From: Candidatus Oscillochloris fontis
GTDB taxonomy: Bacteria; Chloroflexota; Chloroflexia; Chloroflexales; Chloroflexaceae
Direction of reading: 5' to 3'
Assembly (NCBI RefSeq): GCF_004138135.1
Contig: NZ_RYFD01000017.1
Coordinates: 1 to 64,000 of the forward strand
DNA length: 64,000 nucleotides
The notes beneath the pieces were generated by a model, which was not told where the DNA came from, searched no databases, and saw only the letters and a list, made by a program, of their open reading frames with translations. A program made the translations under genes and the position numbers. This document shows positions 20,116-33,009 of the stretch, in pieces; positions within the stretch are counted from its first letter, which is position 1; each line of letters starts with the position of its first letter.

Positions 20116-20826
20116 TTAGGCCACCTGTTCGGTACGCAGGATATAGCCATGGCGCGGAACGGTACAGATATGAACCGGGTGGCGCGGATCGGGTTCGATC
20201 TTCGCACGCAGATTCATCACATGCCAGCGAACCAAACCTGGCTCGGCTGTCTCAGGGGTATAATTCCAGACTTCACGCAGCAGACGTTCACTTGAGCAGA
20301 CCTCGTTGGGGTGGCGCATGAGGTAGCCAAGCAGATCAAACTCGGCAGGCGTAAGTTGGACCGGAGCGCCAGCGACTTCAGCTTGGCATGTGTGCAGATC
20401 GAGAGTCAGATTGCCTGCCCGTAGCACCGCAGTACGAGAACTGAGGTGGGGATTATTGGGGCTACGGCGCAACAACACCTTAATCCGAGCCTTCAATTCA
20501 CGCAGATCGAATGGCTTGGTCAGATAGTCATCGGCACCCTCTTCAAAGCCACGCAGACGATCTTCAATCGTATTACGTCCGGTAAGAAAGAGGATCGGCA
20601 CATCGGCCAGATTACTGCGGGTATGCAAGGTATGGCACAACGCAAAGCCATCCATTTTAGGCATCGCCACATCAAGAACGATCAGATCGGGGCGTTGGCG
20701 CTGGGCCATGTCCAGTGCCTCATCGCCATCATGGGCCATACGCACCGTATGCCCATCATCATAGAGTGATCGCCCAACCACCCAAAGCAGATCATCCTCA
20801 TCATCAACTAGCAGGATGTATGCCAT
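20116..20826 (-). CDS. OmpR/PhoB-family response regulator
   Basis: DNA-binding response regulator. The receiver domain (1-115) has the acidic pair in LLVDDEDD, the phospho-acceptor Asp in LIVLDVAMPKMDG, and TKPF with the conserved Lys. The C-terminal winged helix (about 135-235) has LTPAEFDLLGYLMRHPNEVCSSERLLREVW and RVHxxNLRAKIEPD-like text typical of the Trans_reg_C domain. The ATG has GGAGG 7 bases upstream and overlaps the preceding receiver gene by 19 bases, so the pair is translationally coupled. It is the likely binder of the 11-bp repeat operators that flank the operon. Confidence 0.93.
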   Translation of the reverse strand: MAYILLVDDEDDLLWVVGRSLYDDGHTVRMAHDGDEALDMAQRQRPDLIVLDVAMPKMDGFALCHTLHTRSNLADVPILFLTGRNTIEDRLRGFEEGADDYLTKPFDLRELKARIKVLLRRSPNNPHLSSRTAVLRAGNLTLDLHTCQAEVAGAPVQLTPAEFDLLGYLMRHPNEVCSSERLLREVWNYTPETAEPGLVRWHVMNLRAKIEPDPRHPVHICTVPRHGYILRTEQVA

Positions 20827-21203
20827 ACCCAAGCCTCCTGCTGTTGAGTCTCATCGGCAAACACGTGCTGGAGCATCGCTTGAACATCGGTACGCAAGAA
20901 GGGTTTGGCTAAAAACCCAACAAGCGGCACGTGGCTACGACACCAGTCCTCTTCATAATAGTAACCCGACATCATTACCATGCGGGTCTGTGGGCTGAGC
21001 GCATGGATCTGCTGGGCAAGATGAATCCCATGACTATCGGGCAAAATCGCATCAATGAAGGCTATGGTAACGTCATACTGCACGACAAAATCGAGTGCGG
21101 CAGCCCCCGAACCCACCGCAGTCACAGTCACACCATCGGCCTTCAACATACGCTCAAGCGCCCAACAGAGATCTGGTTCATCATCAATGATGAGAATATG
21201 CAT
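20808..21203 (-). CDS. stand-alone receiver-domain response regulator
   Basis: A single CheY-like receiver of 131 residues: IIDDEPDLCWALE, phospho-acceptor Asp in TIAFIDAILPDSHG, MMSGYYYEED and Lys in LAKPFLRTD. No output domain, so it probably acts by protein contact or as a phosphate relay or sink between the kinase and the OmpR-type regulator that overlaps its end. It starts 8 bases after the kinase stop. Confidence 0.9.
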   Translation of the reverse strand: MHILIIDDEPDLCWALERMLKADGVTVTAVGSGAAALDFVVQYDVTIAFIDAILPDSHGIHLAQQIHALSPQTRMVMMSGYYYEEDWCRSHVPLVGFLAKPFLRTDVQAMLQHVFADETQQQEAWVWHTSC

Positions 21204-21211
21204 AATCCCTC

Positions 21212-22459
21212 TTAATCGCTCACCGGTAGTCGAATGACAAAGGTAGCACCTTTGTCTGGCTCGCTTACAACCTCAAGTGTGCCCTGATGCTGCTGAATAA
21301 TGCTATAACTGATCGAAAGACCAAGCCCTGTTCCCTTACCAACGGTTCGTGTCGTAAAGAAGGGGTCAAAGATCTTAGCGGCATGTTCTTTGGTAATGCC
21401 ATGGCCAGTATCGCAAAAGCGCAGTTCGACATGATCTCCGCTCAAGCGCGTAGTAACCGTCAGTTGCCCACCTTGGGGCATCGCGTTACAAGCATTCAGG
21501 ATGAGATTGGTAAAGACCTGCTGAAGCAGTTCTGGATTGCCATAGAGACGTGGAACATCCGGTGAAAAGTCACGTCTCAAAGTCACCTGTGAGACCAGCA
21601 TTTGGTGACTCAACAGATTAAACGTATCTTCGAGCGTGGCATGGATATTGAGTGGACGGAATCGTTCTTGGGGTGGATGGGAAAATTTGAGCAATTGTTC
21701 AATAATTAATGAGGCGCGTTGGGCCGACGTGACAATTTTTTGGACACACTGTTGGCGTAGGTCGGGGTCATCAGGATGATCTTCGAGCAACTGGGCACTC
21801 GCGGCGATGATCGCCAACGGATTACGGATCTCGTGGGCGATCCCACCCGCCATCACGCCCAACGAGGCAATCTTCGCCGACTGGGCTAGTTGGGCCTCCA
21901 AGCGACGGCGCTCGATATCATCCTCCATGAGTAAGAGTGCCGCCGTCTGACGCTCAGCGATCAGTGAGACAAACCAGAGGTCGTCGCAGGTAAAATCGTG
22001 CTGGATAGCTGCGGTACGAGCGAGGTAGAGCACCCCATGCACCTGATCACCGATTACCATCGGCACACAGAGCACCGAACGCAACGCATGTTGTTCGATC
22101 TCGGCAACAAGCGACGCAGGTAAGTCGGGATTGTGCGGGAATAGGATCGGACGACACTGCTGGGCAACCCAGCCAGCGACACCCGCCCCGACATGGATTG
22201 TCGGCGACAGTGGGGTTGGTGGAGGAACGCCCAGTTCTGCGGACACAGACAGCATGCTGCGTTCAGGATCATACTGCATGAACGCAGCATAATCAGCCTG
22301 AGTCGCCTCAGTGAGCACCTTTAGAAGATCGAGATCCAAGGTTGCGGGGTTACGGTGGGAGAAGAAAAAATGTTGCCAGCAATGGAAGAGCGACTCCAAG
22401 GTTGGGTGCCATGTGCGCTCGACAAGTGGTGGTGATATGGGTAGATTCTGGCTTGTCAT
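21212..22459 (-). CDS. GAF-domain sensor histidine kinase
   Basis: Soluble sensor kinase, no transmembrane helix. A GAF domain spans about 50-185 (GAGVAGWVAQ, RSVLCVPMVIGDQVHGVLYLA). The HisKA domain has the intact H-box GGIAHEIRNPLAII. The ATPase domain has NLILNACNAMPQGG, FCDTGHGI, FDPFFTTR and GTGLGLSISYSII. The signal is not evident; GAF may bind a small molecule or chromophore. First gene of the kinase, receiver, OmpR operon that runs toward gvpA. ATG chosen with GAGAG upstream. A four-unit 11-bp repeat array lies 80 bases upstream, suggesting autoregulation. Confidence 0.93.
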   Translation of the reverse strand: MTSQNLPISPPLVERTWHPTLESLFHCWQHFFFSHRNPATLDLDLLKVLTEATQADYAAFMQYDPERSMLSVSAELGVPPPTPLSPTIHVGAGVAGWVAQQCRPILFPHNPDLPASLVAEIEQHALRSVLCVPMVIGDQVHGVLYLARTAAIQHDFTCDDLWFVSLIAERQTAALLLMEDDIERRRLEAQLAQSAKIASLGVMAGGIAHEIRNPLAIIAASAQLLEDHPDDPDLRQQCVQKIVTSAQRASLIIEQLLKFSHPPQERFRPLNIHATLEDTFNLLSHQMLVSQVTLRRDFSPDVPRLYGNPELLQQVFTNLILNACNAMPQGGQLTVTTRLSGDHVELRFCDTGHGITKEHAAKIFDPFFTTRTVGKGTGLGLSISYSIIQQHQGTLEVVSEPDKGATFVIRLPVSD

Positions 22460-22538
22460 CGCTGACTCTCTACGATAGGCGGCAGCGAGATTGGCGCGTC
22501 TCGGTGCCACAAATAGTACCGATCAACATAGCATATAA

Positions 22539-22582: not shown

Positions 22583-22848
22583 ACCGATAATGACAATCTT
22601 CGTGTGTAATAGAAAGCAGCAATAATACCCTCTGGGATCAGTACCTCGTTCCCAAGAGTCCGCTGTGATCAGCGAACCCAACGACTACGTCCCCGATCAG
22701 TGCCGCCACAGTTCGTGCCTGACGGAACCCAGCCCAGAGCGAATCACACGATAGATCTGGTGTAGGGGCATCCAGTAGGGATGGTACGATCCCCCGCTTC
22801 ATCATACAATGCGTCAAGTGCAGGTAGTGAGTGCCTGAGGAGATGGCA
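22583..22848. other. divergent intergenic region, no gene seen
   Basis: Separates the kinase operon from the cobalamin-sensor operon. No open frame of note and no clear -35/-10 pair was found on the plus strand. GATCAGTGCCGCCACAGTTC at about 22696 only loosely recalls a B12-box, so no cobalamin riboswitch is called. GAGGAG at the right end is the ribosome site of the next gene. Confidence 0.5.
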
Positions 22849-24990
22849 ATGACCCAACCGACAAACGCCGTCACACCGCGAAGCGCCGTAGGCCCTTCTC
22901 TCGCCAAGCTGGTAAGCCACATCCCCGCCGAACAGCATTGGCGTCGTCAGGCTGATGAGCTGATCGTCATTGGTCGGCAGATGGAATTGATGGCACAAGA
23001 GCAGGGTCGCAGTGCACAGGTCATGCTGGGGACGCTGCGCTTCTCGCTCTTTCGGATGCACCAGGGACGGATCGCGCAGTTAGCTCCGTATTGCCAAAGT
23101 GTGACGGTCTATGGCGAGGCGGATGTGGCACCACCGGACATCCCTGGAGTGACATTCGTTTCGGTACCACCGGGCGCACCAATGAGCCAGGAGTGGTTCT
23201 TGGTCGTAGATAGCCCAGGGTTCTGGGGGGCGCTGATCGCGCATGCGAGCCAGGATCGGGCAGATGGAGGAGCGCGGCGGTATCTGTTCGATGGCGTACT
23301 AACGACTGATGAGCGCGTGGTAAGCCGGGCCAGCCTGCTCTTGAGCCTCGCGAGCGGGAAGGGTGCCACCGTCACCGCCGAGCGTGACGCGATGGCGAAC
23401 CAGGCGCGCTGGGGACACTTGTCCTACAGCCTCGTGACCCACCCGGAGGCGCATCGGCTCGAGCTGCTGGGCTGTCTGATTGACATGCCCGACATCCACG
23501 CGCTGCTCTCGATTCCTTCGTTTGGCCTCGACACGATGGGGCCAGAGGCGATGAAGGTGTTGCGACGCTACTGCGGAACCTTGGGCGAGGTTCTCTACCG
23601 TGCGGAGGGCACCACGCTGGTTCCGGTTGCCTGGGGGAATGCCCAGCGCCCCCCAAACCAGCCGATCAATACGGGTGCCGCTGGTCAAGCATTTACCAAA
23701 GGTAGCCTGATCCTGAATCGGCTCCAGCCAAGTGATCCTGAGCAGGCGCTCTTCAACAATGCCAACTCCATGTCGGCGATTCCGCTCTTTGTGAGTGGTT
23801 CACCGTGGGGGGTATTGTTGGTCGGTCAGCCTGAATATGATCCAGAGAAGTCGCTGACCACCACCGCAACGGTAGGGATTGCGGCCATGCTGGAGCAGGT
23901 GATCGAGGCAAACCCATCAGCCGCGATAGCACCAGCATCAGCGGCGGCACCGGCCTACACGCCGCCTGCGGCACCGGCCTACACGCCACCGGCGGCACCG
24001 GCCTATACGCCACCGGCGGCACCAGCCTACACGCCGCCTGCGGCTCCGGCCTACACACCACCGGCGGCTCCGGCCTACACGCAGCCCAGCCAACCGAGCT
24101 TCCCCAGCCAGCCGGCGAGTGGGGTCTTCCCGACCAGCCCAGCGACACCAGGAAGCCCAGCGGCTCCGCCCATGCCGATTATGCCATCGGCACCCACCTT
24201 GCCGCCCCGTCCATCAATTCTGGCACCGCAGCACAACCAGTCCACAACCTTCGGGCTACCGACATGGATGAAGGCACCTGGCCGCAGTGGGCCGGGGGGC
24301 ACAGGCCCGGCAGCCGCACCACCCGCCGAGGGGCCGAGTGTGCGCAGTTGGCCAGTATTGCGCCAGCGCCTCTTTAGTGCCTTGGTCGCCTACGACCAGC
24401 AGGCAGCCGAACAGGTCTGGAGTGAGGCGGTTGGGATCTACTCACCAGAGCAGATCTGTAATGAGTTGCTCACACCGGTGCAGGTTGAGATCGGGAACGG
24501 CTGGCACCGTGGCGAAGTCAGTGTAGCCTCCGAGCACTTTAGTAGCCGCTTCGTGCAGAGCAAGTTGCTCAGTCTCTTCAACACATCAACCGATCACATC
24601 AATGGGCCAACCGCAATTGTGGCATGTGCCCAGGGAGAGTTGCACGAGATCGGGGCGATCATGATCAGCCTCTTCCTGCGTTGGGGCGGATTCCATGTGA
24701 TCTACCTGGGGCAGAATGTGCCCAACTCGACCATCGAAGAGATGGTCGCCCAACTCAACCCACAGGTCTTGGCGCTCTCGGCAGCCACAGTTGCCGCCGC
24801 CAATGGCCTGATCGCCGCCAGCCAGATCATCGCCCAACTGCCAGCCCCGCGACCGTTCTTCATGTATGGCGGCTTCGCCTTCTGGGATCGTGACGATCTG
24901 CGCAATCGGGTACAGAATGGCTTCTACTTCCAGGGCGATATACGCCAAATCGCCCGCATTGTCGCTGAACAGATGAACCAGAACGCCTGA
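22849..24990 (+). CDS. DICT-GAF-cobalamin-binding sensor protein with CarH-type photoreceptor residues
   Basis: Predicted soluble sensor. The N-terminal 180 residues resemble a DICT sensory domain; a GAF-like domain follows (about 200-355: YRAEGTTLVPVAWG, MSAIPLFVSGSPWGVLLVGQP). Then comes a linker with six PAAPAYTP repeats (about 365-410). The C-terminal 210 residues are a helical cap plus Rossmann B12-binding domain. Key residues match the Thermus CarH light sensor: W552-H553 and E562-H563 (the Wx9EH motif; W131, H132, E141 and H142 in CarH) and the lower axial ligand H599 in GELHEIG (CarH H177). It carries no MerR DNA-binding domain, so output must go through partners. Start ATG with GAGGAG at 6 bases. 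First gene of a seven-gene operon. Confidence 0.8.
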   Translation: MTQPTNAVTPRSAVGPSLAKLVSHIPAEQHWRRQADELIVIGRQMELMAQEQGRSAQVMLGTLRFSLFRMHQGRIAQLAPYCQSVTVYGEADVAPPDIPGVTFVSVPPGAPMSQEWFLVVDSPGFWGALIAHASQDRADGGARRYLFDGVLTTDERVVSRASLLLSLASGKGATVTAERDAMANQARWGHLSYSLVTHPEAHRLELLGCLIDMPDIHALLSIPSFGLDTMGPEAMKVLRRYCGTLGEVLYRAEGTTLVPVAWGNAQRPPNQPINTGAAGQAFTKGSLILNRLQPSDPEQALFNNANSMSAIPLFVSGSPWGVLLVGQPEYDPEKSLTTTATVGIAAMLEQVIEANPSAAIAPASAAAPAYTPPAAPAYTPPAAPAYTPPAAPAYTPPAAPAYTPPAAPAYTQPSQPSFPSQPASGVFPTSPATPGSPAAPPMPIMPSAPTLPPRPSILAPQHNQSTTFGLPTWMKAPGRSGPGGTGPAAAPPAEGPSVRSWPVLRQRLFSALVAYDQQAAEQVWSEAVGIYSPEQICNELLTPVQVEIGNGWHRGEVSVASEHFSSRFVQSKLLSLFNTSTDHINGPTAIVACAQGELHEIGAIMISLFLRWGGFHVIYLGQNVPNSTIEEMVAQLNPQVLALSAATVAAANGLIAASQIIAQLPAPRPFFMYGGFAFWDRDDLRNRVQNGFYFQGDIRQIARIVAEQMNQNA

Positions 24991-25011: not shown

Positions 25012-27099
25012 ATGTCCAGCGCTGAAAACTTCTCCCTGCCTGCGCTGCTGGGATTGGGTCCAAAAGGCTGTCTGCTCGAATTGGATCAGGTGCGTGATCT
25101 TGCCGTGATGCTCATGCGCAGCCGCCCGCCAGATATGCGGGCGGGCTGCTTCATTGGCGGAAGACTATCGGTTGGGAAGCATACACCTACCGACGCCATC
25201 GTACTAGCGGAAGGTTTCGGGAGTGCGCCATTTCTGGTGATTGCAGGTCAGCAGGGTGCCAGTGCCCTGCTGACCTGGGCTGAATCGGGGCACTACCGCA
25301 CCCAGATCATCACCGACCCGGAGTATGTTGATCGTGCGGCGCTGGTGCTGGCACAGCTCAGTGACCACGAATATTCGATGCGTGATCTGGTCGAAGCCGA
25401 GGTACAGCGAGCCTATGTCGCACGCCTCGCCGCGACATTGATCGGAGAACTCCAACTCACTGAAACGGATCGCCATGCGCTCATGCCGAATGAGAGTCGC
25501 TGGCTCCATTTGGCCGTGGCAATGGCTAATCGCAGTGGGGCAGAGGCACTGCTGAGTATCCAAGAGGTGCGCCAACTCTTTCAGGAGATGGGAATCCAAC
25601 GCGCAATACTGGGGCATCTTGACGGAGATCAGCATCAGTTCATACCGTTAGCGAGCGAAGGAGGGCCGATTCCGGCTCCATGCACGGTTCAAACCCCCGG
25701 TATGATCGCCAATGTCATTCATCGGGGGCGCGTAGGAACCGCGACCTCAGCACCCCACAGTGGGTTGCAGGGGATCGCCAGTTGGATGGGCAACAACGTT
25801 CTGACGGCAGTCCCGTTGCTGCGCAATGAGCGCGTAGGGGGATTGTTGCTGGTTGCCAGCCCGCGCCCGATACCGACACCAGGTCAGGCGCTCCTGAGTG
25901 GGATCGCAAGCCTCATCGCGCTCAATATGAGCGAGATAGCCAGCAGCACAGCCAGCCGCAGCAATGAGAACGGGAGTAAGACGGCACGAACACTGGCAAC
26001 GGCAACCGCCAACCGTTCGACAAGCACCCGTGATGGCAGCCATATTGTCCGTGAACTGGGTTCGTTACTTACCCACCTTGATGACGCGATCATGCTGGTG
26101 GATGGGCGTGGTCAAGTGACCGACTATACCCCGGCGATGGCGGAACTGTTAGGGATTGATCACAACACCAAAGGGCAGCCGCTGATCGCTAGTGGCGCCG
26201 CGTGTCTCTCATCGCTCTTAGCCGAAGCGTTGATGGAGGATGCGGTCGAGGCACAGGAGATCGAACTACCGAATGGGAGACAAGCCAGCGCTTCGGTGAT
26301 TGGCTTTTCGCAAGGGTTATGGGCGTTTGTGTTACGCCCACAGAGCAAAGCGGAGCGACCAGAGCCTGTGGTGGTGGCAGCACCAGCAGCAGCTATCGTT
26401 CCAGAGAGTGAGCGTAACGAGAGCTTTTTGGCAAACTTCTCAAATATTATTCGGGTACCGTTGCGCGAGTTACGCGAATTGATCACGCGAGTACCCGCAG
26501 CCGGTGAACTAAACGAACAACAATCGCGGCTGATTGGCCAAGTGGTACGCCTGAACAGTGAACTGACCATGTTGGTCAACGATCTGCTCTCACTTGGGCA
26601 AATTCGGCTCCAGACCGGCGATAACCGGGTGATGTTGCGGCTCGATTTACTGATTGAGGCTGCGGTAGGCACCCAATATGCCGAGTTTGGACGGCGCGGC
26701 CAAGAGGTTGAGACCGATATTCAAGCCAAGCTCCCCAGAGTGTATGGTTCGGAGGAGGGTCTGGGCCGGGCCATCTCAGCACTGATTGACAATGCGATCA
26801 AATATAGCCCATCAGGTGCTCATATTCGTGTTTCAGCGAAGCAAGAGGGCAAGATGGTTATCGTTCAAATTAAAGACAGCGGCCCCGGTTTGCGGCCCGA
26901 CGAGCTGGCCCAAATCTTTGATCCATTTTACCGGGCTGCAACCACCGAGCATATGGGAGTTTCAGGCCGTGGCCTCGGACTCACGATCGCCAAGGCGGTT
27001 ATTGAGCAACACGATGGAAGCATCTGGGCCGAGGGTGAACCCGAACAGGGCTGTACCTTCACCTTCCAGTTACCAACTATCGAGAGCAGCACGGGCTGA
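25012..27099 (+). CDS. histidine-kinase-like protein with Asn in place of the phospho-acceptor His
   Basis: Multi-domain sensor, 695 residues. N-terminal sensory region (about 1-180, possibly DICT-related), GAF (about 190-305, AVPLLRNERVGGLLLVASP), PAS (about 345-420, LDDAIMLVDGRGQVTDYTPAMAELLG), a HisKA-like dimer helix and a full ATPase domain (ISALIDNAIKYSP, IKDSGPGL, DPFYRA, GRGLGLTIAKA). The H-box reads FLANFSNIIRVPL where kinases read FxxxxSHELRTPL, so Asn replaces the His. It probably cannot autophosphorylate on that residue and may act as an ATP-binding scaffold or modulate another kinase. 21 bases after the cobalamin sensor; GGAG ribosome site. Confidence 0.88.
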   Translation: MSSAENFSLPALLGLGPKGCLLELDQVRDLAVMLMRSRPPDMRAGCFIGGRLSVGKHTPTDAIVLAEGFGSAPFLVIAGQQGASALLTWAESGHYRTQIITDPEYVDRAALVLAQLSDHEYSMRDLVEAEVQRAYVARLAATLIGELQLTETDRHALMPNESRWLHLAVAMANRSGAEALLSIQEVRQLFQEMGIQRAILGHLDGDQHQFIPLASEGGPIPAPCTVQTPGMIANVIHRGRVGTATSAPHSGLQGIASWMGNNVLTAVPLLRNERVGGLLLVASPRPIPTPGQALLSGIASLIALNMSEIASSTASRSNENGSKTARTLATATANRSTSTRDGSHIVRELGSLLTHLDDAIMLVDGRGQVTDYTPAMAELLGIDHNTKGQPLIASGAACLSSLLAEALMEDAVEAQEIELPNGRQASASVIGFSQGLWAFVLRPQSKAERPEPVVVAAPAAAIVPESERNESFLANFSNIIRVPLRELRELITRVPAAGELNEQQSRLIGQVVRLNSELTMLVNDLLSLGQIRLQTGDNRVMLRLDLLIEAAVGTQYAEFGRRGQEVETDIQAKLPRVYGSEEGLGRAISALIDNAIKYSPSGAHIRVSAKQEGKMVIVQIKDSGPGLRPDELAQIFDPFYRAATTEHMGVSGRGLGLTIAKAVIEQHDGSIWAEGEPEQGCTFTFQLPTIESSTG

Positions 27100-27119
27100 G
27101 CGCCGTAAGGTTGAGCGTT

Positions 27120-28010
27120 ATGCGCTACAGCATTCTGATGTTTGAAACCGATACTGCCCATAGCAGCGCCTGGTCTGAGGCGCTGCTGCGTATTGCCAGC
27201 CAACAGGGAGTCACGATCACGGTGACCGTGGCGCGGACGGTACCTGTGGCCCAGTTCCATGCTGGGCGACGCCAGTTCCATTTACTGGTTGCCCCGCTCT
27301 CAGATGAATCACTCAACTTGGTGACACGGTTGCGCACGCGGAGTACGCATCTGCGGGCGCTCTTCTTCCACCCAGCCGAGACCCCGGAGCAATTGCTTCA
27401 GGATGTCCGGTGGCGCGGCTACACCCTGGCGGTCGTCCCAGAGAGTTCTGATGCGTTCGTGTTCGCAGTCAGCAAGGCACTCGGCTTGCACTTGATTGAT
27501 GACCCTGAGCACCAGGGCCGACCCGCCGCCACGATAAGCGATGTCCAGGTCTTGTTGGATGTCTTGCGCTGGCAGACCAAAGCCCAGTTGGTGCTGTATA
27601 CCGACTATATCGGCAACCTGATCACCCAACGCGGCGACCCGTCGAAGTTGGAGTTAGATGCGGTATCGTCGTTGATCGCAGGCAGTTTTGGAAATTCATT
27701 TGAACTCGGACGGGCGCTGCATGATCCGAATACACGCCATCTGAGTGTGCTTGAGGGTGAGCATTTTGATCTCTATGCCACCAATGCCGGAAATTATCGC
27801 CTACTGGCACTCATCTTTGACAAAGAGTTTGTCAGCCCAAAACTTGGCTATGTTTGGTTACAATTGAAGCGCAGTGCTGATCAGCTTAGTCATATGCGCA
27901 TCGTTGAAGGTAATGTCGGTGACGTGATCGCGGCTGAATTGACGGAGTCACTCAACAATGAGTTTGATCGCATATTCGGTAGTGATCTCATTGACACTCG
28001 TAAGTCCTAA
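27120..28010 (+). CDS. roadblock/LC7-like protein with receiver-like N-terminus
   Basis: 296 residues. The N-terminal 120 resemble a degenerate receiver-type alpha/beta fold (YSILMFETD start, HLLVAPLSDE, LRALFFHPAETPEQLL, TLAVVPESSDAFV) but lack the usual acidic triad. The C-terminal half (about 155-270) looks like a roadblock/LC7 domain: LVLYTDYIGNLITQRGDPSKLELDAVSSLIAGSFGNSFELGRALH, then FDLYATNAGNYRLLALIFD. Roadblock proteins (MglB type) bind and regulate MglA GTPases, and one is encoded two genes downstream. Start ATG chosen; an in-frame TTG is 9 bases earlier. Confidence 0.75.
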   Translation: MRYSILMFETDTAHSSAWSEALLRIASQQGVTITVTVARTVPVAQFHAGRRQFHLLVAPLSDESLNLVTRLRTRSTHLRALFFHPAETPEQLLQDVRWRGYTLAVVPESSDAFVFAVSKALGLHLIDDPEHQGRPAATISDVQVLLDVLRWQTKAQLVLYTDYIGNLITQRGDPSKLELDAVSSLIAGSFGNSFELGRALHDPNTRHLSVLEGEHFDLYATNAGNYRLLALIFDKEFVSPKLGYVWLQLKRSADQLSHMRIVEGNVGDVIAAELTESLNNEFDRIFGSDLIDTRKS

Positions 28011-28034: not shown

Positions 28035-28514
28035 ATGGCACGTTCGCAGCTTGTTCTCTCCGCCGCACAACTCCAGGAGCTACGTCAGCTCTTGGCGCAA
28101 TTTGGACAGCAGGCTGATGTGCGCTTCGCCTTCCTGGGCGATCTGAGCGGTCTGGATATTGTGAGTTGGGATGCCGAGAATGAGACCGATGTGGGGAGTG
28201 TCGCAGCACTCGCCGCCGGTGATATGATGGCAACCCTAGAGGTAGGACGTTTGCTGGGAGGCAAGCGGGCCTGCAACCTGATCGTACAGGAGCATGAAGA
28301 CCAGACTATTCTGATCTCGCGGGTTGGTGAGGCCCTCATTCTACTTGTCTCGACCTCGCGGGATGTACCGCTAGGCTGGTCGCGCTTAGCGATTAAACGG
28401 GCCAATGATCGCATCCTCGCAATCGTGGGGAGTGCGGCAATGGTACCACCTCCCGACGCGATCTCCGAAGATTTCGAGCGCTCGTTTGCCGCGCAGCTCG
28501 ACAACATCTGGTAA
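28035..28514 (+). CDS. roadblock/LC7 domain protein (MglB-like)
   Basis: 159 residues with a single roadblock/LC7 domain: ADVRFAFLGDLSGLDIVSWDAENETDVGSVAALAAGDMMATLEVGRLLG, LIVQEHEDQTILISRVGEALILLVSTS. In Myxococcus MglB, a protein of this fold, is the activating partner of MglA in polarity control. The gene immediately precedes an MglA-type GTPase with 15 bases between, the usual arrangement for a cognate pair. Strong AGGAGG ribosome site. Confidence 0.9.
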   Translation: MARSQLVLSAAQLQELRQLLAQFGQQADVRFAFLGDLSGLDIVSWDAENETDVGSVAALAAGDMMATLEVGRLLGGKRACNLIVQEHEDQTILISRVGEALILLVSTSRDVPLGWSRLAIKRANDRILAIVGSAAMVPPPDAISEDFERSFAAQLDNIW

Positions 28515-28529
28515 AACTGCGAGGCTGCC

Positions 28530-29114
28530 ATGTTTATCAACTGGGCTATTGGCGAACTCAATCTCAAGATCGTCTACTACGGTGCCGCGTTGAGTGGCAA
28601 GACGACCAATCTTCAGTATATTCACGCACGAACCCCAGCCAATTTGCGGGGGCGGCTGATCTCACTCAAGACTCAACAGGAGCGCACGCTGCTCTTCGAT
28701 TTTCTTCAACTTGAGATGGGGAAGGTGAATAACCTCAAACCCAAATTTAAGCTCTACACCGTACCGGGTCAGGTCTATTATGCAGCCAGTCGTCGGCTGA
28801 TTCTGCAAGGGACTGATGGGATCGTCTTTGTGGTTGACTCGCAGGCCGGGCGCTTGGCCGAAAACCAGGAGTCTTGGTTCACCATGGAGCAGCACCTGAT
28901 TGAACTGGGGTACGATATTAACACCTTCCCGATCATTGTGCAGCTCAACAAGCGCGACATGCCGCATGTGATGTCGGCAGCGGAGTTGCGACGCCAACTT
29001 GACGTGCTGAATCGGCCTTGTTTTGAGGCATCGGCACTGCGGGGGAGTGGGGTATTCGATACGCTCAAAGCAGCCATGAACGCGGTGGTAGCCCAGGTAC
29101 GACGCACGATCTAG
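28530..29114 (+). CDS. MglA-type Ras-like small GTPase
   Basis: 194 residues. P-loop GAALSGKT (18-25), switch II TVPGQVYY (78-84; Ras family DxxGQ is altered to PGQ as in MglA proteins), VVDSQ, the guanine-specificity motif NKRD (140-143) and EASAL. MglA switches between GTP- and GDP-bound states to set cell polarity, gliding or pilus placement. With the roadblock partners upstream it forms the probable output of the sensor operon. Chloroflexales filaments glide, so motility control is a reasonable inference, not shown by the sequence. Confidence 0.93.
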   Translation: MFINWAIGELNLKIVYYGAALSGKTTNLQYIHARTPANLRGRLISLKTQQERTLLFDFLQLEMGKVNNLKPKFKLYTVPGQVYYAASRRLILQGTDGIVFVVDSQAGRLAENQESWFTMEQHLIELGYDINTFPIIVQLNKRDMPHVMSAAELRRQLDVLNRPCFEASALRGSGVFDTLKAAMNAVVAQVRRTI

Positions 29115-29184: not shown

Positions 29185-30441
29185 ATGCAACAGGCGACCC
29201 CGATCATCGAGAGCCTTCAAGCCTCTAGTTACGACCAGAATGTGCGGATTGGTGAGTTGACCTTCTTTACAACTGAGAAGGTTGACCCAGTAAGCTACGC
29301 CGCCCTACTGCGTGGTCTGACGGTTGTCTACGATAGCTTCGAGTATGCGATTGCCCAATCGGGCGATCCGGTGGTACAAGCGCTGTGGGCAGCCGATCTG
29401 CGCAAGCAGGCGATGATCCGCCATGACATGTCGTTTGTGGCCATGCATGCGCGTGAGATTCCGGCACTTGAGTTGAGTGCGGAGGTACTGGCCGAGCATA
29501 TTCGGATGCGTTCGCTCCAGATGCCGCGCTCGCTGCTCGGAACCGCCTATGCGCTGGCCACATGGTACATGGGTGGCGACGCCTTTGCGACAAAGGTGGG
29601 TTGGTCGGTGCAACTACGCGAAGGCGCTGGGCTGAGTTTTTTCAACAGTTTTAATGCGTGGGGGCAGACCCGTTGGCCACAGTTCGCCGCTCAGATGGAT
29701 GCGCTCCAGTTTACGCCTGAGGTACGTCAGCAGGTGCTTGAAGCGGCCTACGAGACGCTCGATGGCATTGAGCAGATGATCGGCCAGATCTACCCGATCA
29801 ATGACAACCCGATCAGTGAGTTGGTCATGCTGATCAATCCGTTGGGCGGGAATCACCCAATCACCAACGATATGGAAGAGATCAAGGCGGTCTTCCGCTC
29901 GCATCGGCGGATTGATAAGCTCTTCCCATTTATGGAGTTGCGTTACGGACTCAAGGGGCGGCGTTTCTCGTGGAGTGATGGCTGCTGGATTGCGTCGTTG
30001 CTTGATGAGGGGCAGGAGAGTATCAACCAACAGGTACGCTGGCTGACGCGGCTGATGGCACGGCGTGGGATGCCACAGTGGTTCATGGAATGCCACTTGA
30101 TCCTTATGACCGAAGATCTGACCCAGGCCCGGCCATACAATCAGGAGCGCTACCTGAAACTCTCCGAGACAGCGCGGGTCTTAGCCGAAGAGCGGCGGGC
30201 GAGTATTAACGATGCCAATCTGGTTGCGCTCGATAATGCCTTCTATGCCCGTGTGGGCCAGGAGTGGCGCACCGTCATGCCCAACTGTGGTGGGCTGATC
30301 GCTTCAGCCGTCGCCGATGACCGGAACGGTGTCCCACATGCGCTTGAGGCATTTATGAGTTGGATGACTGACTCCACACGTTTCCCTGAGGTCTGGATCA
30401 ATGCCGCCCACGAGACGATTGAGATGGCGCGACGGCTGTAG
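29185..30441 (+). CDS. heme-oxygenase-like helical protein (tentative)
   Basis: 418 residues, all-helical by eye. The N-terminal half resembles the heme oxygenase/TENA fold: TTEKVDPVSYAALLRGLTVVYDSFEYAI, then LLGTAYALATWYMGGDAF and REGAGLSFFNSFNAWG, recalling the LGxLYVLEGSxLGG and GxGxxFF segments of bacterial heme oxygenases. The proximal His normally near the N-terminus is not in the expected place, so heme cleavage is uncertain. The C-terminal 200 residues are unfamiliar. If active it would supply biliverdin, the chromophore of phytochromes; if not, it may be a helper of the GTPase module. The ATG has GAGAGG upstream and follows MglA by 70 bases. Confidence 0.45.
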   Translation: MQQATPIIESLQASSYDQNVRIGELTFFTTEKVDPVSYAALLRGLTVVYDSFEYAIAQSGDPVVQALWAADLRKQAMIRHDMSFVAMHAREIPALELSAEVLAEHIRMRSLQMPRSLLGTAYALATWYMGGDAFATKVGWSVQLREGAGLSFFNSFNAWGQTRWPQFAAQMDALQFTPEVRQQVLEAAYETLDGIEQMIGQIYPINDNPISELVMLINPLGGNHPITNDMEEIKAVFRSHRRIDKLFPFMELRYGLKGRRFSWSDGCWIASLLDEGQESINQQVRWLTRLMARRGMPQWFMECHLILMTEDLTQARPYNQERYLKLSETARVLAEERRASINDANLVALDNAFYARVGQEWRTVMPNCGGLIASAVADDRNGVPHALEAFMSWMTDSTRFPEVWINAAHETIEMARRL

Positions 30442-30584: not shown

Positions 30585-31232
30585 ATGTTTCTCCAAGGCA
30601 GCTTTGCACTTATCAGCCCAGCCGCGCTGATCCAGACGCTTTGTCAGGAGCAGCGGACGGTGACCATTACGGCGAGCCGTGGCAATGGTACCGCCCGGAT
30701 CTGGATCATTGAAGGTCTGGTGGTGGGTGCCCGCTGTAACGAGCATACCGACGAGGAGGCGATCTTCCGGGTGGCCCAATGGGCCGACGGCATGTTCACC
30801 GTCTCTGGGGGCGCCGAGGAGGCACCAATGACGATGGAGGCCGAAGCCGAGACTCTCTTGCTCGAAGCAGCACGCCGCCGCGACGAGGGGGAGTTGGCAC
30901 CGCCGCCGCATGCTCCCGCTGATCTGCGGCTCGACCAGATTCTCGCCGATTGTCCAGCACTCTCCGGGGGGGCGCTGGTACGTTCGGATGGGGCTTCGAT
31001 TATGTCGGGGATGCCGGTCTCGGCACCGTTAGTTGCGACAAGCCTCGCGGTGATTGGGGTCGCGTTGGGGAATACGTCGGGGATGGCAGCCTATATCGGG
31101 CCGGGTCAACGGTTGTTGCTCACCCGGAGTGCAGCGGGCCACATCCTGTTGGCGGCGGTGCGCCCCGGCGAGGGGCTGGGCGAGGCGGGTGCGCAGCTTG
31201 AGCGGATTATTGGGACAGCGTTGCCGGTATAG
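30585..31232 (+). CDS. DUF4388 (PATAN-type) protein with C-terminal roadblock-like domain
   Basis: 215 residues. The N-terminal 95 match DUF4388: FLQGSFALISPAALIQTLCQEQRTVTIT, GTARIWIIEGLVVGARC, GEEAIFRVAQW-like and ADGMFTVSGG. The C-terminal part (about 115-215: GALVRSDGASIMSGMP, AYIGPGQRLLLTRSAAGHILLAAVRPG) resembles a roadblock/LC7 domain. DUF4388 is known from MglA-linked and two-component systems in gliding and cyanobacterial species (PATAN). It is the last gene of the sensor module, 143 bases after the previous one, so possibly with its own promoter. Strong AAGGGGAG ribosome site. Confidence 0.8.
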   Translation: MFLQGSFALISPAALIQTLCQEQRTVTITASRGNGTARIWIIEGLVVGARCNEHTDEEAIFRVAQWADGMFTVSGGAEEAPMTMEAEAETLLLEAARRRDEGELAPPPHAPADLRLDQILADCPALSGGALVRSDGASIMSGMPVSAPLVATSLAVIGVALGNTSGMAAYIGPGQRLLLTRSAAGHILLAAVRPGEGLGEAGAQLERIIGTALPV

Positions 31233-31338: not shown

Positions 31339-33009
31339 ATGTTTTGTTACCAGTGCCAAGAGACGACGAAGAATACCGGATGCCTCGTGCGCGGAACCTG
31401 CGGGAAGGATGAGCGAGTCGCTCATCTGCAAGATTACCTGCTCTATGCCCTCAAGGGGCTTGCCGCCGTTGCGGTGCACGGCCAAGCGAGTGGTGTTACC
31501 GATCCCGCAACCGACCTCTTTATGGCCCAGGCGCTCTTCGCCACGCTCACCAATGTCAATTTTGATGCTGAGCGCATCTACCAACTGACCAGAGAGACTT
31601 TTGTCCGCCGCGAGGCGCTGCGTAGCTGGGTTCATACCGCTCGCCACGCCGCTGGCCTTGAGTGTAAGAATCCGCTGCCCGCCGCCGCCGCCCAGCCCGC
31701 CGATGGCGACATCGAAGCCTATGTGGCGCTCGGTGCGCAAGTCTCCTCCACGCTCAATCAGCACTCCGACCCCGATATTCAGTCTATGCGCGAGCTGCTC
31801 ACCTATGGGCTGAAGGGCTTGGCCGCCTACTGCGATCATGCCTATGTGCTCGATCATGGCGATCCTAACCTGCTCGCCTTCGTACACCAGGGTTTGGCCG
31901 CTACGCTCAATGATGATTTGGGGTTGAATGATCTCATTCAGCTCTCCATGCGCTGTGGTGAATTGGGCGTGCAAGCGATGGCGCTGCTCGATGCGGCCAA
32001 CACCGGGCGTTTTGGCGACCCCGAACCAACCAGTGTGAACCTCGGAGTGCGTGCGGGTGCGCCGGGCATCCTCGTCAGTGGCCACGATCTGCTCGACCTC
32101 CACGATCTGCTGCGCCAGACCGAGGGCAGCGGCGTGCTGGTCTATACCCACGGTGAGATGTTGCCGGCCCACGCCTACCCGGTACTCAAGGCGTTCCCAC
32201 ACTTGGCTGGAAACTATGGCGGTGCTTGGTGGGATCAGCAGCGCGATTTCGCCGCCTTCAATGGGCCAATTCTGATGACCACCAACTGTATCCAGACACC
32301 CCGCGACAGCTATCGTGAGCGCATCTTCACCACCGGGATGGTCGGTTTTAGTGGTCTCGCGCACATTGCGGAGCGTGCGCCGGGTGGCCAGAAGGACTTC
32401 AGCCCGCTAATCGAGATGGCGCTCGAATCGCAGCCCCCGTTGGAGTTGGAGACCGGCAGCATTATGGTCGGTTTTGCGCGCAAGGCGGTGCTCGACAACG
32501 CAGGCGCGGTACTGGAAGCGGTGCAGAGCGGGGCGATCAAGCGCTTCGTGGTGATGGCCGGGTGTGACGGGCGGCAGAAGGAGCGCGAGTACTACACCGA
32601 AGTTGCCGAGCAGTTGCCCAACGATACGATTATTCTGACCGCTGGCTGTGCTAAGTATCGCTACAACAAGCTCAACCTCGGCAGCATCGGGGGCTTCCCG
32701 CGTGTTCTCGACGCTGGCCAGTGCAACGACTCCTACTCACTCGTGGTGGTCGCCCAGGCGTTGGCTAACGCGGTGGGTGCCAAGCACATCAACGAACTGC
32801 CGATCTCGTATGACATCGCCTGGTACGAGCAGAAGGCCGTGCTCGTGCTGCTCTCACTGCTGCACCTCGGTGTGAAGGGCATTCGGCTCGGCCCAACCCT
32901 ACCCGCATTTCTCTCGCCGAACGTCGCGGCGTTCCTGGTCGAGAACTTCGCGATCAAGGGCATCGGCAGCGCGGAAGAGGATGTCGCCGCGATGATGGCG
33001 GGGGCGTAG
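31339..33009 (+). CDS. hcp: hydroxylamine reductase (hybrid cluster protein)
   Basis: Hybrid-cluster protein of anaerobic metabolism, reducing hydroxylamine in vitro and nitric oxide in vivo in E. coli. The N-terminal cysteines C3, C6, C15 and C21 (Cx2Cx8Cx5C) fit the class found in strict anaerobes, not the E. coli spacing. Hybrid-cluster ligands are visible around VMAGCDGR, LTAGCAKYRYN and LDAGQCND. 556 residues is full length. A Crp/Fnr regulator lies 1.7 kb downstream, which often controls hcp in other bacteria; here the link is inferred. Repeats follow the stop. Confidence 0.96.
   Translation: MFCYQCQETTKNTGCLVRGTCGKDERVAHLQDYLLYALKGLAAVAVHGQASGVTDPATDLFMAQALFATLTNVNFDAERIYQLTRETFVRREALRSWVHTARHAAGLECKNPLPAAAAQPADGDIEAYVALGAQVSSTLNQHSDPDIQSMRELLTYGLKGLAAYCDHAYVLDHGDPNLLAFVHQGLAATLNDDLGLNDLIQLSMRCGELGVQAMALLDAANTGRFGDPEPTSVNLGVRAGAPGILVSGHDLLDLHDLLRQTEGSGVLVYTHGEMLPAHAYPVLKAFPHLAGNYGGAWWDQQRDFAAFNGPILMTTNCIQTPRDSYRERIFTTGMVGFSGLAHIAERAPGGQKDFSPLIEMALESQPPLELETGSIMVGFARKAVLDNAGAVLEAVQSGAIKRFVVMAGCDGRQKEREYYTEVAEQLPNDTIILTAGCAKYRYNKLNLGSIGGFPRVLDAGQCNDSYSLVVVAQALANAVGAKHINELPISYDIAWYEQKAVLVLLSLLHLGVKGIRLGPTLPAFLSPNVAAFLVENFAIKGIGSAEEDVAAMMAGA

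Follow-up and report, generated by a model that had tools for sequence, protein, structure and literature searches.

A candidate B12 photoreceptor of the CarH type encoded with a pseudo-histidine kinase and an MglA/MglB GTPase module in Chloroflexales

Known B12 photoreceptors deliver their output to DNA, to a transcription factor or to a fused enzyme. In CarH of Thermus thermophilus and Myxococcus the cobalamin-binding domain (CBD) is accompanied by a MerR DNA-binding domain; AerR of purple bacteria, likewise a B12 light sensor, works via a partner protein, the transcription factor CrtJ (PMC5362033, PMC6199135). Photocobilins and photoglobins, and the BBAG-2 clusters, combine a light-type B12 domain with a phycobiliprotein-like globin and a heme oxygenase; B12 and biliverdin are coupled in the fused photocobilins (PMC10979010), and in Myxococcales the genes of the BBAG-2 globins accompany one for a separate B12 protein (PMC10151467). 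A further relevant precedent is the conservon, for example Cvn8, in which a small GTPase, an MglB-like roadblock protein, a kinase-like protein and a stand-alone GAF sensor lie in one operon; the Streptomyces GAF protein CvnF8 binds and stimulates CvnA8, the kinase of this small-GTPase module (PMC13343842). The locus described here lies in a window of 64,000 nucleotides from Candidatus Oscillochloris fontis (NZ_RYFD01000017.1, positions 1 to 64,000), whose genome of 4.46 Mb in 139 contigs groups with Oscillochloris.

The reading frame of the 713-residue protein at the head of the locus (Table 1) is open throughout, and its ATG start is backed by the invariance of Met1 in 22 orthologs; an in-frame GTG is also present at 22831. 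An earlier note on this DNA had likened five of its residues, W552, H553, E562, H563 and H599, to W131, H132, E141, H142 and H177 of Thermus CarH. Direct reading of the translation finds all five where the note had placed them, the first four with the spacing of Thermus CarH and the last within one residue of it (36 residues from H563 to H599, as compared to 35); because the MerR-type CarH of the same genome also has 36, the alignment marks the extra residue as a loop difference of the lineage. The light signature of cobalamin domains, GxxW, EH, GxxH and GxxxP (PMC11796333), is complete (G549xxW552, E562H563, G596xxH599, G621xxxP625). None of the five residues varies among the 22 aligned orthologs, in which column identity averages about 50%, nor do G549, G614, G621 and P625, while G596 varies in 7 of the 22. 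Pfam matches B12-binding_2 at 7e-15 and B12-binding at 5e-11, the NCBIfam CarH model matches at 5e-32 (111 bits, under its full-length cut-off of 400), and TtCarH is the top PDB sequence match (6.8e-21). It is also the best structural match to the AlphaFold model (Foldseek E 5e-13), and all of the top 40 Foldseek matches are TtCarH in its dark and light states, with target TM of at most 0.85 and rmsd of about 2.6 Å; this is a predicted model in which pLDDT is about 90 for GAF (230-350), mostly 75-92 for the CBD, intermediate for DICT and low for the linker. Taken together, the Pfam, PDB and Foldseek matches and the ortholog invariance rule out chance as the origin of the five-residue pattern. 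In a tree of CBDs, where long-branch positions are uncertain, the DICT-bearing group forms a single clade (99/98) that groups with CarH (98/98), apart from the other cobalamin proteins of the genome. Judged by its signature and by the fold of the predicted model, the protein thus has a cobalamin domain of the CarH type.

Table 1. Features of the locus, in window coordinates.
Feature	Position	Strand	Evidence or remark
Candidate B12 photoreceptor, DICT-GAF-proline-linker-cobalamin-binding protein, 713 aa	22849..24990	+	Pfam, PDB, orthologs
DICT domain, residues 17-132	22897..23244	+	Pfam 29.0 bits, cut-off 23.8
GAF domain, residues 230-328	23536..23832	+	Pfam 19.7 bits (under cut-off), orthologs, model
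24-base tandem repeat, 5.9 copies, encoding PAAPAYTP linker	23942..24082	+	Repeat analysis
FGLPxWM motif, residues 468-474	24250..24270	+	Ortholog alignment
Four-helix cap with G549-x-x-W552-H553, E562-H563	24358..24567	+	Pfam, ortholog alignment
Rossmann half of cobalamin domain: G596-x-x-H599 (lower ligand), G621-x-x-x-P625	24610..24873	+	Pfam, ortholog alignment
GAF-PAS-pseudo-HisKA-HATPase protein	25012..27099	+	Pfam; phospho-acceptor His replaced (N478, codon 26443)
MglB-like protein 1, roadblock-like C-terminal part and N-terminal part outside known families	27111..28010	+	NCBIfam MglB 3.1e-6, residues 149-262
MglB-like protein 2, Roadblock/LC7	28035..28514	+	Pfam, NCBIfam; PDB MglB 1j3w 2e-8
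MglA GTPase	28530..29114	+	PDB M. xanthus MglA 1.3e-61
Heme-oxygenase-fold protein with C-terminal helical domain	29185..30441	+	Open frame from 29152; proximal heme-ligand His replaced by Asn
DUF4388 (PatA N-terminal-like) protein	30585..31232	+	Pfam 2.6e-16; kept in most related clusters

In place of the MerR domain of CarH, this protein has DICT and GAF domains followed by a long proline-rich linker, and neither Pfam nor NCBIfam scans returned a DNA-binding domain or an HTH, in agreement with the earlier note. DICT and both B12 models are found in all 22 aligned proteins and PF01590 (GAF) in 20 of them at E up to 0.01; the DICT domain is the sole one in its genome. Orthologs differ in length mainly within the linker, and amid its otherwise unconserved proline-rich sequence the FGLPxWM motif is nearly invariant (F468 and P471 fully). 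The note had called this architecture unfamiliar, which is too strong, since DICT and GAF already appear among the partners of light-responsive cobalamin domains in a published similarity network (PMC11796333). Only DICT, GAF and CBD were detected in the 713-residue protein, with no globin fused to the CBD as in a photocobilin. As a B12 light sensor that works via a partner protein, AerR resembles the role proposed here, but the two are barely related in sequence (E 0.45).

The genome encodes further proteins with the light signature. A bona fide MerR-type CarH lies beside a phytoene-synthase-like gene (L002, contig 131, 1087-2049). A second light-signature cobalamin protein of 397-454 aa (L003, contig 133, 1309-2502) matches the photocobilin SasPcob across both CBD and globin parts (2.6e-25), and from this match it is a candidate fused photocobilin. 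A third such protein, with no HTH and a long helical-looking N-terminal region (L005, contig 56, 1075-2271), has a GGDEF (diguanylate cyclase-like) gene as its neighbour. Counting the MerR-type CarH, the light-type B12 signature occurs in at least four proteins of this genome.

The domain combination, which the note had proposed to search for across Chloroflexota, was found in 23 of the 82 Chloroflexales genomes (in one carrier, G001, the protein is cut at a contig end) and was not found in the remainder of the 400 Chloroflexota genomes searched; a scan of genome contigs with the DICT-GAF region as query returned three Chloroflexales only. Its presence is patchy between genera. Reaction-centre genes were found in 22 of the 23 carrier genomes, the exception being G030 (88% complete), which has no reaction-centre match. 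This last carrier would be easier to understand if the cobalamin domain responded to redox conditions or to the state of AdoCbl, such as B12 supply, oxygen or alkylation state, or were B12-independent like Myxococcus CarA, and regulated the same GTPase module. Most cobalamin domains, indeed, are not photoreceptors (PMC11796333), M. xanthus CarA is a B12-independent paralogue of CarH (PMC9304148), and GAF and DICT are general sensor domains. However, the carriers are almost entirely phototrophs, the five residues that never vary include the counterpart of H132 in CarH, the residue that forms the bis-His light state, and every full-signature protein assayed in PMC11796333 responded to green light, while the negative control of that study, which lacks the signature, bound no AdoCbl. 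We consider a status sensor unlikely. Of the earlier reading, a B12 light sensor whose output goes to protein partners with DICT and GAF as added inputs, the first part is favoured by the signature, the tree, the phototroph distribution, the missing DNA-binding domain and a cobalamin adenosyltransferase encoded in the genome (PF01923 at 7e-62), which would supply AdoCbl; the assignment of DICT and GAF as inputs was a guess, output or adaptor roles being equally possible.

Whereas AerR targets CrtJ, the linked partners of the 713-residue protein are a pseudokinase and a GTPase module. We compared the window with 24 related loci fetched from other genomes, giving 25 DICT-GAF-CBD loci, and the gene order DICT-CBD, pseudokinase, MglB1, MglB2, MglA, DUF4388 is mostly kept in the 24. 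The conserved pseudo-histidine kinase, one or more MglB-like roadblock proteins and MglA are found together in 21 of the 25 clusters, the window included, usually with the DUF4388 gene as well; in the other four the cluster has no MglA: two of these loci are cut off by the end of their contig, L063 is fragmentary, and L061 (genome G019) has its MglA on a different contig. In L059 and L060 the same gene set is rearranged yet together. The linkage to MglA and the pseudokinase extends over at least 12 related genera, and genus g4 (probably Chloroflexus, the name being inferred) is missing the MglA-linked module.

The MglA of the window has intact P-loop, TVPGQ and NKRD motifs and is a true member of its family. 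Every one of the 23 genomes that carry the DICT-CBD protein also has MglA of this type (at least 66% identity), and none of the 59 others does (Fisher p = 7.5e-21, a value that ignores shared ancestry); a second MglA (43-49%) is nearly universal across the genomes compared. Genomes G039 and G040 each have two copies of both this MglA type and the DICT-CBD gene. The module resembles MglA/MglB of Myxococcus and Thermus in its MglA match of 1e-61, intact GTP-binding motifs and MglB-like proteins, and differs from them in having two MglB-like proteins, one of them N-terminally extended, and an attached photoreceptor gene. The N-terminal extension of MglB1, about 140 aa, matches no family, and tblastn found no MglB1 in clusters L048, L049, L052, L054, L056 and L062. 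The DUF4388 domain (PF14332) we take to be the PATAN domain. PATAN genes have been seen near Group 1 and 5 MglA genes (PMC4316618), and cyanobacterial PATAN regulators connect photoreceptors with type IV pili (PMC7690835), so that the PATAN protein of this operon could possibly link the MglA module to the motility machinery. Just past the operon lies a hydroxylamine reductase/hybrid-cluster protein gene (31339-33009).

The kinase-like protein encoded between the photoreceptor and MglB1 is not a histidine kinase in the usual sense. Among the 23 kinase-like proteins, whose co-occurrence with the photoreceptor gene was judged on the fetched loci, the HisKA phospho-acceptor histidine is missing without exception, with Asn, Arg, Gly, Trp, Asp or Ser in its place, while the helix that follows, LNEQQSRLIGQVVRLNSELTMLVNDLLALGQ, is strongly conserved in all 23 sequences; the HATPase_c domain of the window protein is intact (1e-28). 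Loss of the histidine, conservation of the helix and retention of an ATP-binding domain at that score make a conserved non-phosphorylating relay likely, and from its sequence the protein probably works through conformation or ATP binding rather than phosphotransfer. In this respect the operon departs from the conservons, as it does in the B12 domain of its sensor, its MglA-like GTPase and its phylum. Genes of the CvnA, CvnB and CvnD kinds are present, and a Pfam scan of the operon returned no CvnC-like family, so the locus falls outside the conservons proper.

In many relatives the cluster also holds the components known from photocobilins and BBAG-2 clusters, which raises the possibility of a split photocobilin, in which an AdoCbl domain and a separate bilin-binding globin work together and bilin absorption broadens the colour range. 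In 13 related clusters the photoreceptor gene is separated from that of the pseudokinase by a gene for a globin-like protein of 360 aa; its two halves are homologous to each other (hhalign, 97%), and it matches Phycobilisome at 3.6e-6 (as do 6 of the 13 members) and phycocyanin at 0.0017. A globin profile search of the PDB returned phycobiliproteins and designed helical proteins only, and no photocobilins. At E below 1e-100 the gene occurs in 17 of the 82 genomes, all 17 of which also carry the DICT-CBD protein, and in G019 one copy adjoins a short heme oxygenase that keeps its heme-ligand histidine. Unlike in photocobilins, the globin of these relatives is encoded in trans, in a DICT-GAF and GTPase context. 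Against this possibility as an account of the present locus, the window genome has no globin gene, a congener (G034; L043, contig 97, 89204-89548) has only a remnant of it, interrupted by two stop codons, at the corresponding place between photoreceptor and pseudokinase, and the globin alignment holds no canonical CXRD or CXQD bilin motif. The heme-oxygenase-fold protein of the window argues in the same direction. Its N-terminal domain has the fold of rat HO-1 (Z 19.6), but it is not a heme oxygenase in the strict sense: the proximal heme-ligand histidine is replaced by Asn, as in all eight long proteins of Oscillochloris and g2 genomes, which makes it less likely that this gene supplies biliverdin for the sensor. 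The window protein is possibly a bilin- or heme-binding pseudo-enzyme. Relatives keep the histidine in their short heme oxygenases and in two long proteins, and heme-oxygenase-family genes occur in 19 of the 23 carrier genomes as compared to 8 of the 59 others. We also considered whether this protein ends in a photoglobin, and with hhalign values of 21% and 6% make no such claim. A split photocobilin at this locus appears to us quite improbable.

A last alternative is that output is transcriptional, the GTPase operon being a mere neighbour, and runs through the divergent genes at 20116-22510, which encode a GAF histidine kinase that retains its His, a CheY-like regulator and a regulator of the OmpR type. 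In its favour, the OmpR-type regulator has a DNA-binding domain, and the kinase recurs at 50% identity or more in 9 related loci. We regard this alternative as very doubtful, as many clusters with MglA and the pseudokinase have no such divergent system, while MglA, by contrast, is found in every carrier genome.

We thus lean, modestly, toward the reading that the 713-residue protein is an AdoCbl photosensor of the CarH type that provides the sensory subunit for a G-protein module built around MglA. Its linkage to MglA and the pseudokinase in at least 12 genera suggests that light is wired to a polarity or motility switch and not directly to DNA, and gene context likely names its partners: the pseudokinase, the MglB-like proteins, MglA and the PATAN protein. 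By analogy with its relatives, the protein, which lost or never had a DNA-binding domain, would bind AdoCbl and photolyse it. In the dark it would hold AdoCbl, its adenosyl group surrounded by W552, E562 and H563 and its cobalt ligated from beneath by H599; green or blue light would break the Co-C bond, upon which H553 could ligate the cobalt from above, and the protein would change its oligomeric state or shift its DICT-GAF part, which is carried on a flexible linker. The neighbouring kinase-like protein may then read this change and alter the action of the two MglB-like proteins on MglA, and MglA-GTP may influence cell polarity or surface motility through effectors that include the PATAN protein. 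The order of these steps and the motility output are drawn from gene linkage, which by itself gives no direction of signalling, and from the conservon precedent in Streptomyces. These bacteria grow largely by anaerobic phototrophy. Oxygen has been cited as needed for effective monomerisation of TtCarH (PMC11796333), and this contrast counts against the reading. The pathway in full, from an AdoCbl photoreceptor (a split photocobilin in many genera) through a dead histidine kinase acting as a conformational relay to the Ras-like GTPase MglA, and so to the control of gliding or polarity of filamentous anoxygenic phototrophs, we put forward tentatively, as possible rather than probable.

In the literature we searched, no link between a B12 photoreceptor and MglA was found. 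Relative to that literature, two things are new: the coupling of such a protein to MglA and a conserved pseudokinase, and a bilin-type globin encoded separately in that setting. A globin encoded apart from its B12 protein, and fused photocobilins, were known already, as outlined above. Gliding is known in the related Chloroflexus, yet a 2017 review, which describes gliding mechanisms in Chloroflexales as obscure, was aware of no demonstration of light-controlled motility in Chloroflexus (PMC5812497); this, like the missing module of genus g4, counts against the reading. If the reading holds, B12 photobiology would gain a new output, with a sensor genetically locked to MglA/MglB by way of a dead kinase, and the 713-residue protein would be a first candidate photosensor for motility in Chloroflexales. 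The family may also include a bilin and B12 system split over separate proteins, and the operon may represent a conservon-like G-protein system outside Actinomycetota.
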